Below the pieces are notes generated by a model. The model searched no databases. It was not told the DNA's origin and was given only the letters and a program-made list of their open reading frames with translations. Positions 28,678 through 33,620 of a stretch of 38,704 nucleotides of DNA are shown here, piece after piece (positions within the stretch are counted from its first letter, which is position 1; every line of letters begins with the position of its first letter). The stretch spans positions 1 through 38,704 of the forward strand of contig JAICJD010000013.1 in NCBI GenBank assembly GCA_025928645.1, given 5' to 3'. The position numbers were made by a program, and so were the translations under genes. This stretch comes from Gemmatimonadales bacterium. GTDB lineage: Bacteria; Gemmatimonadota; Gemmatimonadetes; Gemmatimonadales; GWC2-71-9.

Positions 28678-28752
28678 GGAGTCACCCTGAGCGAAGCGAA
28701 AGGGGGGCATGCCTCGGCTCATGCCCCCTTTCGCTTCGCTCAGGGTGACTCC
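28678..28752. repeat. long palindrome (33-34-base arms, 8-base loop), family A
   Basis: Left arm 28678-28711 and right arm 28720-28752 are complementary except for one extra G on the left. The sequence is nearly identical to the element at 3988-4061. It lies between the peptidase stop and the promoter of the Psp-like operon and could act as a hairpin terminator insulating the two. Confidence 0.92.
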
Positions 28753-28830: not shown

Positions 28831-29046
28831 ATGACCTACGAAGACATCGTGCAGGTTCTCGGCTACGCCGGTGGTCACGAGCAGCGCGTCCGGATCATGA
28901 CGACGGACCGGACCGAGGTCATCGGCATTCCGACGAGTGTGGATACCCACATCACGGCCCACGAGGTCTACCTCAGACCCGCCGGCAACGATGAAACCGA
29001 GATCGCGGTCTCTCTCGGCGCGATCGAGGCCGTCGAGCTCGTCTGA
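28831..29046 (+). CDS. small beta-rich protein heading the Psp-like operon
   Basis: A 71-residue soluble protein with no signal or membrane segment. The first 20 residues look helical (YEDIVQVLGYAGGH); the rest reads as alternating strands (RVRIMTTDRTEVIGIP, HEVYLRPA, ETEIAVSLGAIEAVELV), a pattern like small SH3/Sm-like barrels. I do not recognise the family. It is the first gene after the predicted promoter and lies 76 bases before the first PspB-like gene, which has its own strong GGGAGGT ribosome-binding site. A regulatory or adaptor role is possible but not shown. Confidence 0.68.
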   Translation: MTYEDIVQVLGYAGGHEQRVRIMTTDRTEVIGIPTSVDTHITAHEVYLRPAGNDETEIAVSLGAIEAVELV

Positions 29047-29122
29047 TCCAACCCCGCCTGGCGTTCCGCGTTGAAACATCGCGAGGGTAGCCGACGTAGG
29101 GGGCGGACCGGGAGGTCGATTC

Positions 29123-29380
29123 ATGGATATGGAAGGCATACTCGCGATCACGTTCATCTTCGGGGGAGGGACTCTCTTCCTCCTGTCGCTCAGTCCCGTA
29201 GGGAAGGCGCTGGCCGACCGCATCCGTGGCAAGGAAGCCATCCCCACGCCGGATCCGGAGCTGCTCGCGGAGGTGGAGGCCCTCCGGGCCGAAGTGTCGG
29301 AGCTGCACGAGCGGATGGACTTCGCGGAGCGGCTGCTGGCCCAGCGGCCCGAACCCGGCAAGGTGGGAGCTGGAGAGTGA
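29123..29380 (+). CDS. PspB-like mini-membrane protein, paralogue 1 of 4
   Basis: An 85-residue protein. Membrane helix about 5-23, then the basic motif SPVGKALADRIRGK, then a coiled coil (about 46-72) ending ELHERMDFAERLLAQ. The plan (one N-terminal helix, basic stop-transfer, C-terminal coiled coil) is that of PspB, the inner-membrane partner of PspC and PspA, although sequence identity to E. coli PspB is not obvious. It overlaps the next gene by four bases (GTGA). A strong ribosome-binding site (GGGAGGT) fixes the ATG. Confidence 0.8.
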   Translation: MDMEGILAITFIFGGGTLFLLSLSPVGKALADRIRGKEAIPTPDPELLAEVEALRAEVSELHERMDFAERLLAQRPEPGKVGAGE

Positions 29381-29637
29381 GCCCCGACCAGGTCTTCGCC
29401 ATCGTCATGGGATCGATCGCCGCCTGGACGATCGCCCGCGTCTTTCGTGGCCCGCTCGGCGAGGCGCTCGCCCGCCGCATCGGGGGCACGCACGAGCCGC
29501 CCGCTGGCCGGGGGGACGAGCAGGTGGCCGAGTTGCAGGCCCGTCTGGCCGAGCTCGAGGAGCGGCTCGACTTCGCCGAGCGCGTGCTGCTCCAGGAGCG
29601 GTCGCCCGGCGAGCTGGACCGAGGGAGCGCGCCATGA
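29377..29637 (+). CDS. PspB-like mini-membrane protein, paralogue 2 of 4
   Basis: An 86-residue protein from a GTG that overlaps the previous stop. Membrane helix about 5-22 (VFAIVMGSIAAWTIARVF), motif GPLGEALARRIGGT, then coiled coil ending AELEERLDFAERVLLQE. It shares both blocks with its neighbours and is clearly a tandem duplicate. The start choice depends on the shared architecture: an earlier start would read out-of-frame sequence from the first paralogue. The stop overlaps the next ATG (ATGA). Confidence 0.8.
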   Translation: MSPDQVFAIVMGSIAAWTIARVFRGPLGEALARRIGGTHEPPAGRGDEQVAELQARLAELEERLDFAERVLLQERSPGELDRGSAP

Positions 29638-29975
29638 TCCTGCTTCAGGCTGTCCCGGTGCCGCCCACGCCGCCGGACATTCCGGTGGATCCGAACCTGC
29701 TCGCCAGCCACATGTCAGGGCCGACGATGGTGCTGATCGCGTTCGCATTTCTTGCGGCGCTGACCATCGTGCTCTGGCCAATCGCGCGGGCCCTCGGCCG
29801 GCGGCTCGAGGGGAAGTCCACCGACGCGGAGCTCCGGGGCGAAGTCGAACAGCTCCAGCAACGGCTGGGCGAGGTCGACGCACTGCACGCGCGCATGGCG
29901 GAGCTGGAGGAGCGGCTGGACTTCACCGAGCGGCTCCTGGCCCAGGCCCGCGAGCCGGACCGGCTGGAGCGCTAG
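29634..29975 (+). CDS. PspB-like mini-membrane protein, paralogue 3 of 4
   Basis: A 113-residue protein, longer at the N-terminus by a Pro/Val-rich stretch (about 1-28) that would lie outside the membrane. The membrane helix is about 31-50, followed by WPIARALGRRLEGK, a longer coiled coil, and MAELEERLDFTERLLAQ near the C-terminus. The extra N-terminal segment is the main difference from the other three and might give it a periplasmic face. The ATG overlaps the stop of paralogue 2. Confidence 0.8.
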   Translation: MILLQAVPVPPTPPDIPVDPNLLASHMSGPTMVLIAFAFLAALTIVLWPIARALGRRLEGKSTDAELRGEVEQLQQRLGEVDALHARMAELEERLDFTERLLAQAREPDRLER

Positions 29976-29984
29976 AGCGCCGCC

Positions 29985-30242
29985 ATGTCGTTCACGGGGC
30001 AGGACGCCGTCGCCATCGTGGCGATTGCCGTCGGACTGGTGAAGATCCTGGGGCCGATCGTCGGCGCGGTCGCGGATCGGATCCGCGGGGGCGGCCAGGA
30101 GGCAGCCGACGGAGCGCTGGCCGCCGAGGTAGACCATCTGCGCGGCCGATTGGCCGAAGTCGAGGAGCGGTTAGATTTCGCCGAGCGTCTCCTGGCCCAG
30201 GCGCGCGAGGCCGACCAGTTGCCGGGGGGAGCCCAGCCATGA
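29985..30242 (+). CDS. PspB-like mini-membrane protein, paralogue 4 of 4
   Basis: An 85-residue protein. Membrane helix about 8-28 (AVAIVAIAVGLVKILGPIV), motif GPIVGAVADRIRGG, coiled coil ending LAEVEERLDFAERLLAQ. It starts nine bases after paralogue 3 and its stop overlaps the next start (ATGA). The last block is almost identical in all four proteins, while the membrane helices differ, which suggests the coiled-coil end contacts a common partner. Confidence 0.8.
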   Translation: MSFTGQDAVAIVAIAVGLVKILGPIVGAVADRIRGGGQEAADGALAAEVDHLRGRLAEVEERLDFAERLLAQAREADQLPGGAQP

Positions 30243-30634
30243 TCACCCGCGAGGACATCCAGTCATTTCTCGATCGGCTCGACGGCGGCGGGCTGACCGT
30301 CAAGGAGGTCGAGCCGAACCTGTGGATCGCCCGGACGCCGGACGACGCCGAGGTGGTGGTTCACTACGCGCCGCCGGTGATCATTCTCCGGGTGCGGGTC
30401 ATGGAGCTGCCCGCCAGCGAGCCGCGGCGCGGCGAGCTGTTCCGCCAGCTGCTCGAGTACAACGCGCGGGACCTGGTGCACGGGTCGTACGGGCTCGAGG
30501 GCGACCACGTCGTGCTCACCGACACACTCGAGCTGGAGAACCTCGACTTCAGCGAGTTCGAGGCCAGCTTCGATTCGATCACCCTGGCGCTGGCCTCGCA
30601 CCTGACGGCGCTCGCTCCGTACCGGGAAAGGTGA
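30239..30634 (+). CDS. YbjN/CesT-like protein
   Basis: A 131-residue soluble protein with the helix-strand plan of the YbjN family, a fold shared with type III secretion chaperones (CesT). It begins ITREDIQSFLDRL, continues with strands TVKEVEPNLWIARTP and PPVIILRVRVMELP, a central helix RGELFRQLLEYNARDLVHGSYG, and a long C-terminal helix FDSITLALASHL. Such proteins usually bind an unfolded or helical partner. Its place between the PspB-like genes and pspA suggests a chaperone or sensor link between them (inference). Confidence 0.75.
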   Translation: MITREDIQSFLDRLDGGGLTVKEVEPNLWIARTPDDAEVVVHYAPPVIILRVRVMELPASEPRRGELFRQLLEYNARDLVHGSYGLEGDHVVLTDTLELENLDFSEFEASFDSITLALASHLTALAPYRER

Positions 30635-30640
30635 CGGGAC

Positions 30641-31417
30641 ATGGGACTCTTTGATCGCCTCTCGGCGCTGGTCCGGTCGAACATCAACGACCTGATTTCG
30701 CGGGCCGAGAACCCGGAGAAGATGCTCAACACGCTGATCGTCGACATGAAGACGCAGCTCGCCAAGGCCAAGCAGCAGGTGGCCTCGGCCATCGCCGACG
30801 AGAAGAAGCTCCAGGCCGACGCCGAGAACATGAAGAAACAGGCGGAGGACTGGGAGCGCCGCGCGATGCTGGCCGTGCAGGAGGGCCGCGACGACATGGC
30901 CAAGCAGGCGCTCGGCCGCTACAACGAGCAGCTGCAGGGCGCGCAGCAGCTCCAGGAGACCTGGCTGCGGCACAAGGCCGAGACCGACGCGCTCAAGCTG
31001 TCGCTGCGCCAGCTCAACGACAAGATCGAGGAAGCCAAGCGGAAGAAGAACATCCTGGTGGCGCGCGCCAAGCGGGCGGAGGCGCAGCAGCGGATCCAGG
31101 AGACCATGTCGGGCATGTCGGACAAGAGCGCCTTCGAGTCGTTCGAGCGGATGGCGGAGAAGATCGAGGCCAGCGAGCGCAAGGCGCTCGCCGCCGCGGA
31201 GCTCAACGAGGAAGTCTCGGGCGACCGGCTGATCCAGCAGTTCGAGGCGCTGGAGTACAAGGGCAGCTCGGACCAGCAGCTCGTCGAGCTCAAGCAGCGC
31301 ATGGGGCTCATCGCGCCCGGGGCGCCGCAGCCGAACCGCCAGCTCAACAAGGGCGCCGCGAACGACGTCCACGACGCCGAGCTCGTGGAAGAGGGAGACG
31401 AAGGACCCACCCGCTGA
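30641..31417 (+). CDS. pspA: PspA/IM30 (Vipp1) family membrane-stress protein
   Basis: An ESCRT-III-like coiled-coil protein that polymerises on damaged inner membrane. The 258-residue product has the family opening MGLFDRLSALVRSNINDLISRAENPEKML (amphipathic helix plus first helix), long hairpin helices (about 30-145) and the further helices ESFERMAEKIEASERKALAAAEL. The C-terminal tail, about 45 residues past the last helix, is acidic (VEEGDEGPTR), reminiscent of the Vipp1 extension but without its hallmark helix. It starts seven bases after the YbjN-like gene. E. coli-type PspF or PspC genes are not seen nearby. Confidence 0.95.
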   Translation: MGLFDRLSALVRSNINDLISRAENPEKMLNTLIVDMKTQLAKAKQQVASAIADEKKLQADAENMKKQAEDWERRAMLAVQEGRDDMAKQALGRYNEQLQGAQQLQETWLRHKAETDALKLSLRQLNDKIEEAKRKKNILVARAKRAEAQQRIQETMSGMSDKSAFESFERMAEKIEASERKALAAAELNEEVSGDRLIQQFEALEYKGSSDQQLVELKQRMGLIAPGAPQPNRQLNKGAANDVHDAELVEEGDEGPTR

Positions 31418-32550
31418 TGGCGCGAGCGATCGACGACGGCCGGCGCGGCCTGCCCATCGGGCGGCTGCTGCTGGTCGTCGTGCTGGTGGCGCTGGTCGTC
31501 AAGACCATCGACCTGCTGCTGGTCGTGTTCCTCGCCATCATCTTCGCGATCTATCTCGATGACCTGACCGATTTCCTCGACCGGCGGCTGGCCGTGCCCC
31601 GGCCGCTGGGTCTGCTCATCGGCCTCGCCGCGACGCTCGGCGCCCTGGTGGGCATCGTGTTCCTGATCGCCCCGCCGGTCAGCGAGCAGGTGCAGGACCT
31701 GCTCACCAACCTTCCGCAGTACCTGACCAACCTGGACGCGAACATCACCTCCCTCATGCGCAACATCCCGGTCCTCCGCCGGGAAGCCACGCCGGGGGGC
31801 GGCGGCCAGCCGGGTCTGCTGGCCACGGCGCTCGAAGAGATCCTGGGATTCCTACGCGGGGCCGCTGTTCCCTACCTCAAGGGAGGCGTCGAGGTCCTGA
31901 TCGAGGGCGTCAGCGTGCTGGTCATGGCCATTTTCATGGCCCGCCACCCGACGGTCTACACCGAAGGCGTCGTCGCCCTGGCACCGCCCCGCCGGCGCCC
32001 GTTGGTCCGGGCGATCCTGCAGGACGTGAACCTGACGATTCGCTCCTGGGTGTTGGGCCAGATCATCGCCATGGTGCTGCTCGCCGCGCTGACCACGCTC
32101 GGGCTCTGGGCGCTCGGCATGCCTTATTTCCTGGCGTTCGGCGTGTTCGCCGGCGTGGCCGCGATCGTGCCGTTCTTCGGCGTGCTGCTCTCGACCATCC
32201 TGCCGGCGCTCTTCGCACTCGGCGCGTTCGGGATCACCAAGGCGCTGCTGGTGGCCGCGCTCGGCGTGATCGTGCACATCATCGAGGCGAACTTCGTGGC
32301 CCCCCTCGTGATGGAACGGCAGGTCAACCTCCCACCCGTGGTGACGATCGCGGGTGTGCTCATCATCGGAAAGCTGTTCGGGCTGGGCGGGCTCATCATC
32401 GCGGTGCCGATCCTCGCGCTGGTGATGATCCTGGTCCGCCACATCCTCATCGGCGAGGTATACGGCGATCCCGTCGGCGCGGTGAAGCCGTCGGGGACGG
32501 TGCCCACCGAGGCCGAGCCCACCATCCAACCCGCACCCACCACCGGATGA
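31417..32550 (+). CDS. AI-2E family transporter (UPF0118)
   Basis: A 377-residue inner-membrane protein with about 7-8 helices. The family blocks are visible: LLLVVFLAIIFAIYLDDLTDFLDRR at the start and the repeated glycine-rich hydrophobic region with PLVMERQVNLPPVVTIAGVLIIG toward the end. Members export or move autoinducer-2 or sodium/other ions; the substrate cannot be assigned here. The ATG overlaps the pspA stop (TGATG), so it is in the same operon. Its C-terminal Pro/Thr tail is disordered. Confidence 0.9.
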   Translation: MARAIDDGRRGLPIGRLLLVVVLVALVVKTIDLLLVVFLAIIFAIYLDDLTDFLDRRLAVPRPLGLLIGLAATLGALVGIVFLIAPPVSEQVQDLLTNLPQYLTNLDANITSLMRNIPVLRREATPGGGGQPGLLATALEEILGFLRGAAVPYLKGGVEVLIEGVSVLVMAIFMARHPTVYTEGVVALAPPRRRPLVRAILQDVNLTIRSWVLGQIIAMVLLAALTTLGLWALGMPYFLAFGVFAGVAAIVPFFGVLLSTILPALFALGAFGITKALLVAALGVIVHIIEANFVAPLVMERQVNLPPVVTIAGVLIIGKLFGLGGLIIAVPILALVMILVRHILIGEVYGDPVGAVKPSGTVPTEAEPTIQPAPTTG

Positions 32551-33620
32551 CCCCCCCGCGCTTTCTGATTGTGGCCGACGGCGACTTCTCGCCCATGACC
32601 TCCAAGACCGCCAACTCCGTGATCCGCTTCCTGCCCGACCGGACGGTCGGCGTGCTCGACCGGGCGCAGGCGGGGGAAACCGTGCAGGACGTGCTGGGCT
32701 TCGGCGGCGCGCTGCCGATCGTGGGCTCGATGCGCGAGGGGCTGGCGCTCGGCCCCACGGCCGTGTTGATCGGCATCGCGCCGCAGGGCGGACGCATGCC
32801 CCAGGAATGGCGCGCGTGGCTGGCCGAGGCGCTGGATCACGGCTGCGATCTCTGGAGCGGGCTCCATACGTTCCTGGGCGATGACCCGCTGCTGGCGGAG
32901 AAGGCGCGAGCCAATGGCCGGAAGATCTTCGACCTGCGGCGTCCGCCGGCGGACCTCCCGATCGCATCGGGGCTGGCCAAGACCGTGGACCCGCTGGTCG
33001 TGCTCACGGTCGGCACCGACTGCAACGTGGGCAAGATGACCGCCCAGCTCCAGCTCACCCGAAAGCTCAACGAGCGGGGCGTGCGCACCCGATTCGTGGC
33101 CACGGGGCAGACCGGGATCATGATCGAAGGCTGGGGCATCGCCGTGGACGCGGTGGTGGCCGACTTCATCGCCGGCGCGGCGGAGCGTCTGGTGCTGGAA
33201 GGCGCCAAGGACGCGGACGTGGTGCTGGTGGAAGGGCAGGGGAGCATCAACCATCCGGGATACTCGGGGGTCACGCTGGGCCTCCTCCACGGCTCGTGCC
33301 CGGACGCGCTCATCCTGTGTCATCAGGCGACCCGCGAATACATCGGCGACTACCGGCAGGCGGCGTGGCTCCGGATTCCGCCGCTCGCCGAGTACATCCG
33401 GCTGTACGAAATGATCGGCTCGGCGGTGCACCCGACGAAAGTCATCGGGATCTCGCTCAACACCTACGACATGGGCGATGCCGAGGCACGCCGGGCGTGC
33501 GAGGCGGCGGGTCGCGAGACCGGGCTCCCGGCGACGGACCCGGTGCGGTTCGACCCGGCGCCGCTGGTGGACGCGATCGCGAGCGAGCGGACCCGGCACC
33601 AGGGGCGGCGCTCGGCGTAG
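32547..33620 (+). CDS. DUF1611 (DgcN-like) P-loop protein
   Basis: A 357-residue P-loop protein with a two-domain plan: a Rossmann-like N-terminal domain (1-145) and a nucleotide-binding C-terminal domain with VGTDCNVGKMT (155-165), then ATGQTGIMIEGWGIAVDAVVADF and VLVEGQGSINHPGYSGVTLGLLHG. Family members include DgcN, reported as a D-amino acid N-acetyltransferase acting with the epimerase DgcA. No dgcA neighbour is seen, so D-glutamate use is only a possibility. The start overlaps the AI-2E gene (ATGA), and it likely ends the operon. Confidence 0.88.
   Translation: MTPPRFLIVADGDFSPMTSKTANSVIRFLPDRTVGVLDRAQAGETVQDVLGFGGALPIVGSMREGLALGPTAVLIGIAPQGGRMPQEWRAWLAEALDHGCDLWSGLHTFLGDDPLLAEKARANGRKIFDLRRPPADLPIASGLAKTVDPLVVLTVGTDCNVGKMTAQLQLTRKLNERGVRTRFVATGQTGIMIEGWGIAVDAVVADFIAGAAERLVLEGAKDADVVLVEGQGSINHPGYSGVTLGLLHGSCPDALILCHQATREYIGDYRQAAWLRIPPLAEYIRLYEMIGSAVHPTKVIGISLNTYDMGDAEARRACEAAGRETGLPATDPVRFDPAPLVDAIASERTRHQGRRSA

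Follow-up and report, generated by a model that had tools for sequence, protein, structure and literature searches.

The array and its neighboring genes

We analyzed a stretch of 38,704 nucleotides (hereafter, the window), which comes from one contig of a Gemmatimonadales genome assembled as 3.9 Mb in 294 contigs (genome G000, contig C38). Four small genes lie side by side on the forward strand of the window between positions 29123 and 30242: array genes 1 (29123–29380; 85 aa), 2 (29377–29637; 86 aa, with a GTG start), 3 (29634–29975; 113 aa) and 4 (29985–30242; 85 aa). The span of these genes (29123–30242) and the range of their lengths (85–113 residues) are those given by an earlier reading of the sequence alone (the sequence-only reading), which had also described them as overlapping or nearly abutting. 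Indeed, overlaps of 4 bp are found between genes 1 and 2, between genes 2 and 3, and between gene 4 and the ybjN-like gene that follows.

The four proteins are built on a common plan, in which a single membrane helix is followed by a basic P-x3-A segment and then by a coiled coil that terminates in ERxDFxERLLA. Their alignment presents 15 invariant columns, which include P25, A29, R33, G36 and those of the block E-R-x-D-F-x-E-R-x-L. Protein 1 carries an FGGG-type membrane helix, a class that is present in most arrays, and protein 3 carries a proline-rich N-terminal tail ahead of its membrane helix, with similar proline-rich stretches found upstream in related copies. A profile built from the four proteins recovered each of them in their own genome with E < 1e-34 (next match, 1.7e-11), but these four sequences are the training set of the profile and the independent test is therefore provided by the relatives. 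Nearly all sampled genomes of the family have the same array upstream of pspA, and the four proteins are homologous. No Pfam family covers them at the curated level. The AlphaFold2 model of protein 1 (pLDDT of 82, with a low pTM of 0.36) consists of a helix at residues 3–23, a break at S24-P25, a helix at residues 25–36 and a coil helix at residues 45–74. The coiled-coil tail is predicted to be cytoplasmic because a net positive charge follows the membrane helix. Among solved structures, the array proteins matched nothing more specific than generic coiled coils and the tails of channels, and a fold search with the array protein model returned no match.

The genes that follow, all on the forward strand, were confirmed by Pfam matches to come in the order previously proposed. 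The YbjN/CesT-Tir-like gene (30239–30634; 131 aa) belongs to the CesT/Tir-like chaperones both by family score (PF22550; E = 7.4e-26; 91.1 bits for a cut-off of 27) and by fold. Its AlphaFold2 model (pLDDT of 90) presents the type III secretion chaperone (CesT) fold, and Foldseek matched this model to SicP (1jyo; E = 1.6e-6; TM 0.76), BacA (8q8o) and YbjN (6vu7). The next gene, pspA (30641–31417; 258 aa), scores above the curated cut-off of PspA/IM30 (PF04012; E = 4e-45; 154.6 bits for a cut-off of 33.9) and is the sole PF04012 match in its genome. An AI-2E family permease gene (31417–32550; PF01594; E = 1.6e-51) lies within the run of overlapping genes and went undetected in some genera. Finally, a DUF1611/DgcN-like gene (32547–33620; PF07755; E = 3.3e-76) closes the run.

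A conserved ECF-type promoter

A predicted ECF (sigma-W-like) promoter is located on the forward strand at 29072–29098, with TGAAAC at 29072–29077, a 17-nt spacer and CGTA at 29095–29098. This pair of elements is invariant in the window and in six close relatives, within an otherwise diverged spacer upstream of gene 1. The arrangement TGAAAC-N16/17-CGTA, the sigma-W consensus of B. subtilis, is thus conserved ahead of the operon. The search for sigma-70-like promoters at the locus found none in excess, so that the promoter proposed ahead of the array by the sequence-only reading stands as an ECF-type site and not as a sigma-70-like one. No sigma-54 site was found at the operon start; sigma-54 itself is present in the genome.

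Across 1.19 Mb of related loci, all 67 strict sites were found on the coding strand, and 42 of them were located at most 260 bp upstream of the first array copy. The two sets of loci examined are partly shared, such that not all of these counts are independent. Every strict site among 79 named loci preceded either the first or the last copy, or was positioned between the latter and ybjN/pspA. Many loci devoid of ybjN place pspA and its adjoining copy behind one shared ECF-type site, and a GGAAAC variant precedes the last copy in further loci of this kind. The entire 3.9-Mb genome contains 10 strict sites, and others are found ahead of genes that, judged by eye, encode an M48-type peptidase, a TolC-like protein and a small regulator. 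One of these sites (TGAAAC-N17-CGTA; contig C41:3495–3521) overlaps the stop codon of an ECF sigma factor gene and is located 40 bp before a gene for a zinc-finger-type anti-sigma factor. This ECF sigma factor is a candidate for controlling the array, or the site may occur there by chance.

Several other sequence elements were observed around the promoter. Doubled −35-like elements (TGAAACATTCTGAAACGT), about 10 bp apart, are found in the ECF promoter of several relatives (loci L124, L139, L121 and L189). An ORF of 71 aa (28831–29046) is conserved ahead of the array in many relatives, with 80–84% identity within the genus, and has no Pfam or NCBIfam match. A separate conserved stretch, CTA[CG]ATTAGG, precedes this ORF, which lies upstream of the ECF promoter, since the latter is located between the ORF and the array. 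Further upstream, a long and nearly perfect inverted repeat (GGAGTCACCCTGAGCGAAGCGAAAGGGGGCATG with its complement; 28678–28752) is located between this ORF and a peptidase gene.

Distribution of the array and linkage to pspA

Of 150 genomes sampled from the phylum, 134 were found to encode pspA, usually as a single copy. Within the family to which the window belongs (f1; Gemmatimonadales), the array is found directly upstream of pspA or ybjN-pspA in nearly every genome with enough contig. The number of copies ranges from 1 to 11 per locus, the maximum being reached in genome G087. One exception within this family, genome G103, possesses ybjN-pspA without an adjacent array, as well as 13 dispersed copies. 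The sister family f3 presents a three-gene array and families f6 and f7 a single copy ahead of ybjN-pspA, and no copy adjoined pspA in the loci examined from families f2, f4 and f5. Scanning public genomes yielded 79 loci, ranked by likeness to array protein 1 and hence no measure of frequency, and all are titled as Gemmatimonadota or Gemmatimonadales MAGs or as bin HR33. The array runs into pspA in most of them, and in most of the others the contig ends earlier. Both the linkage to pspA and the homology of the proteins, on which the sequence-only reading had staked itself, thus came out clearly in the comparison of profiles and loci, and its proposal of a Psp-type locus in which a membrane component has been multiplied is supported.

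Using a profile of 32 sequences, we detected relatives of the array proteins in 133 of the 150 genomes, some of which gave 10 to 17 matches each. Both pspA and the array family were found in 130 genomes, pspA only in four, the array family only in three and neither in 13, such that their presence and absence agree in 143 genomes (Fisher's test, P = 7e-13). This P value overstates the independence of the observations: the 13 genomes with neither gene span several separate lineages, but most of them are small and five come from one family. For the losses shared with pspA, small genome size and family f9 are confounding factors.

The CesT-like family (PF22550) was detected in 105 of the 150 genomes and is missing from many genera of f1 whose array abuts pspA. 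This weakens the candidacy of the CesT-like protein as a necessary partner of the array, and the YbjN-like protein is unlikely to be its sole partner.

The end block away from pspA

The end block of the array is also present in proteins encoded at a distance from pspA within the same genome, some of them fusions to TM2 domains. This suggests that the partner of the block may be something other than PspA, or that the proteins may pair with one another. One alternative is a hetero-oligomeric membrane scaffold, in which the paralogs bind each other through the end block into a membrane-organizing coat or microdomain and PspA is co-regulated without contact. The sharing of the block by array copies, dispersed copies and TM2 fusions, its resemblance to a coiled-coil pairing code and the 10 to 17 matches of some genomes all favor such a scaffold. 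However, the presence and absence of the family follow those of pspA also in genomes where the two are not neighbors, and the single ECF-type site ahead of pspA and its adjoining copy at many ybjN-less loci also argues against it. We consider the scaffold a minority possibility, albeit the strongest of the alternatives.

We observed two TM2-domain proteins (PF05154) with a C-terminal ERxDFxERLL block that are unlinked to pspA, one in the same genome as the window (locus L009, contig C191) and one in genome G013 (locus L114). In family f2, dispersed membrane proteins end in the related block ERISEGQRFxTKLLAER (loci L093, L094, L101, L102 and L109), and in some of these the membrane helix is preceded by a long N-terminal part.

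Relation to PspB

The array proteins had been labeled PspB-like, and they do resemble the PspB of proteobacterial pspABC operons by their size (about 75–110 aa), by a single N-terminal membrane helix followed by a cytoplasmic helical tail, as predicted from the structural model and the charge bias, and by sharing an operon with pspA. The NCBIfam family most often matched was that of PspB (TIGR02976), with 10 of 32 members matching at E ≤ 0.1 and none of 32 shuffled sequences, a control in which both the composition of each segment and the pattern of hydrophobic residues in the coil are preserved. These matches indicate that a PspB-like function and a distant homology are possible. In contrast to PspB, the array comprises 1 to 11 different paralogs and its best-scoring protein in the window reaches 16.5 bits for a family cut-off of 51.7 (TIGR02976/PF06667). 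PF06667 was found in none of 41 genomes searched, and PspC (PF04024) is absent from the genome of the window and was found in two of the 41. The profile alignment to E. coli's PspB covers only 24 columns of the coil, with a probability of 17%, and where control by PspF and sigma-54 would call for a sigma-54 site, the operon start carries the conserved ECF-type site. Membership of PspB/PspC is thus rejected, and a reading of these proteins as PspB working with PspC is not supported; what survives of the label is a weak resemblance that exceeds the shuffled control. Given this balance, a true but diverged PspB, multiplied within a classical PspABC system, appears improbable.

Age and divergence of the paralogs

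We further compared 384 copies from 92 loci, of which 375 are located in arrays. The best match of 359 of these 375 copies (96%) was found in another genome rather than in their own array, so that the paralogs are old and have been kept; recent duplicates are few. The membrane half is 51% identical between reciprocal best pairs of different genomes when the pairs are chosen on the full sequence, 41% when they are chosen without the membrane half, and 32% between paralogs of the same genome. For the end block, the identity reaches 59% among paralogs and 65–66% among these orthologs of different genomes, and a block resembling ER[LVMIQ][DE]F[ATS]ER[LM]LA was recognized in 133 of 146 copies of family f1. 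The variable membrane half and constant coiled-coil end noticed in the window therefore hold among paralogs in general (respectively, 32% and 59% identity).

If a short coiled-coil gene had simply been duplicated in tandem, neutrally and with no separate roles for its copies, the range of 1 to 11 copies and the few recent duplicates would fit. Against this reading stand the affinity of nearly all copies to those of other genomes, the conservation of membrane halves between orthologs and the presence of an FGG-type copy in 69 of 75 arrays with three or more copies, and we regard it as unlikely. That the array proteins are clients of the YbjN/CesT-like chaperone, as its type III secretion chaperone fold and the adjacent, overlapping genes of the window might suggest, is very improbable, as the many genera that lack the PF22550 gene keep array and pspA together.

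Comparison with other pspA-linked systems

Duplicates of PspB in psp operons are on record (PMC11237479), and our search of open-licence papers found no array of the present kind. A CesT/Tir-PspA dyad has already been described (Ravi et al. 2024, PMC11237479) and the pspA-linked bac operon of Pseudomonas encodes BacA (PMC10948618), whose fold resembles that of the YbjN-like protein. As in these two systems, a gene of the CesT/YbjN fold directly precedes pspA in the window; unlike in them, an array of membrane proteins stands in front, and it is this array that is retained where the CesT/Tir partner is missing. The pspA-ydjGHI genes of B. subtilis are controlled by sigma-W, with pspA belonging to its regulon (PMC3498285), and share with our locus an ECF-type promoter before pspA and the presence of companion proteins, but these companions come from unrelated families. 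One of them, an SPFH-domain protein, is reported to connect PspA with the membrane (PMC3498285; PMC8581546).

A possible repertoire of membrane adaptors

The best reading of our results is a lineage-specific, ECF-controlled Psp-type system whose membrane adaptors, perhaps interchangeable as anchors or sensors, share one docking tail. We give about even weight to the more specific view that the array constitutes a repertoire of single-pass inner-membrane adaptors serving the one PspA that these bacteria possess. In favor of this view are the position of the array beside pspA across the family, the best matches of its copies in other genomes, the constant end block with its paralog-specific membrane half, the agreement in presence and absence with pspA, the retention of the array in genera devoid of the CesT-like family, the strand-specific ECF promoter, the lack of PspB and PspC in the genome, the weak resemblance to PspB, the predicted topology and the analogy with the sigma-W regulon of B. 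subtilis. Against it stand the end blocks encoded away from pspA, the dispersed copies of genome G103, the f2 loci in which no copy adjoins pspA and the confounding of the shared losses. PspA is an ESCRT-III-like membrane-remodeling protein. Under the adaptor model, envelope damage would lead an ECF sigma factor to activate pspA jointly with the array. The C-terminal block that the paralogs have in common would pair them with one another and dock PspA, with the CesT-like protein acting, where present, as an assembly chaperone. The differing membrane and N-terminal segments would direct PspA to, or trigger it at, distinct sites or types of damage. The array proteins would thereby fill the role of PspB/PspC, or that of YdjG/H/I in Bacillus, while not belonging to those families. 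We infer that they may bind PspA directly. More tentatively, the array could form a combinatorial repertoire of sensors or anchors, with up to 11 diverged single-pass proteins using one C-terminal docking code that is also carried by the TM2 proteins.

How PspA and ESCRT-III proteins are recruited to damaged membranes is an open question, and the partners of PspA are mostly unknown outside Proteobacteria, Actinobacteria and Firmicutes. The lineage with the array consists of uncultured Gemmatimonadales, which are soil bacteria, and its many natural variants of one putative adaptor, in which the docking block stays constant while the membrane parts vary, offer a ready-made mutational series for finding the docking surface and the inputs. 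If the repertoire reading is true, a single ESCRT-III-like PspA would be recruitable in these bacteria by many different membrane or periplasmic inputs.
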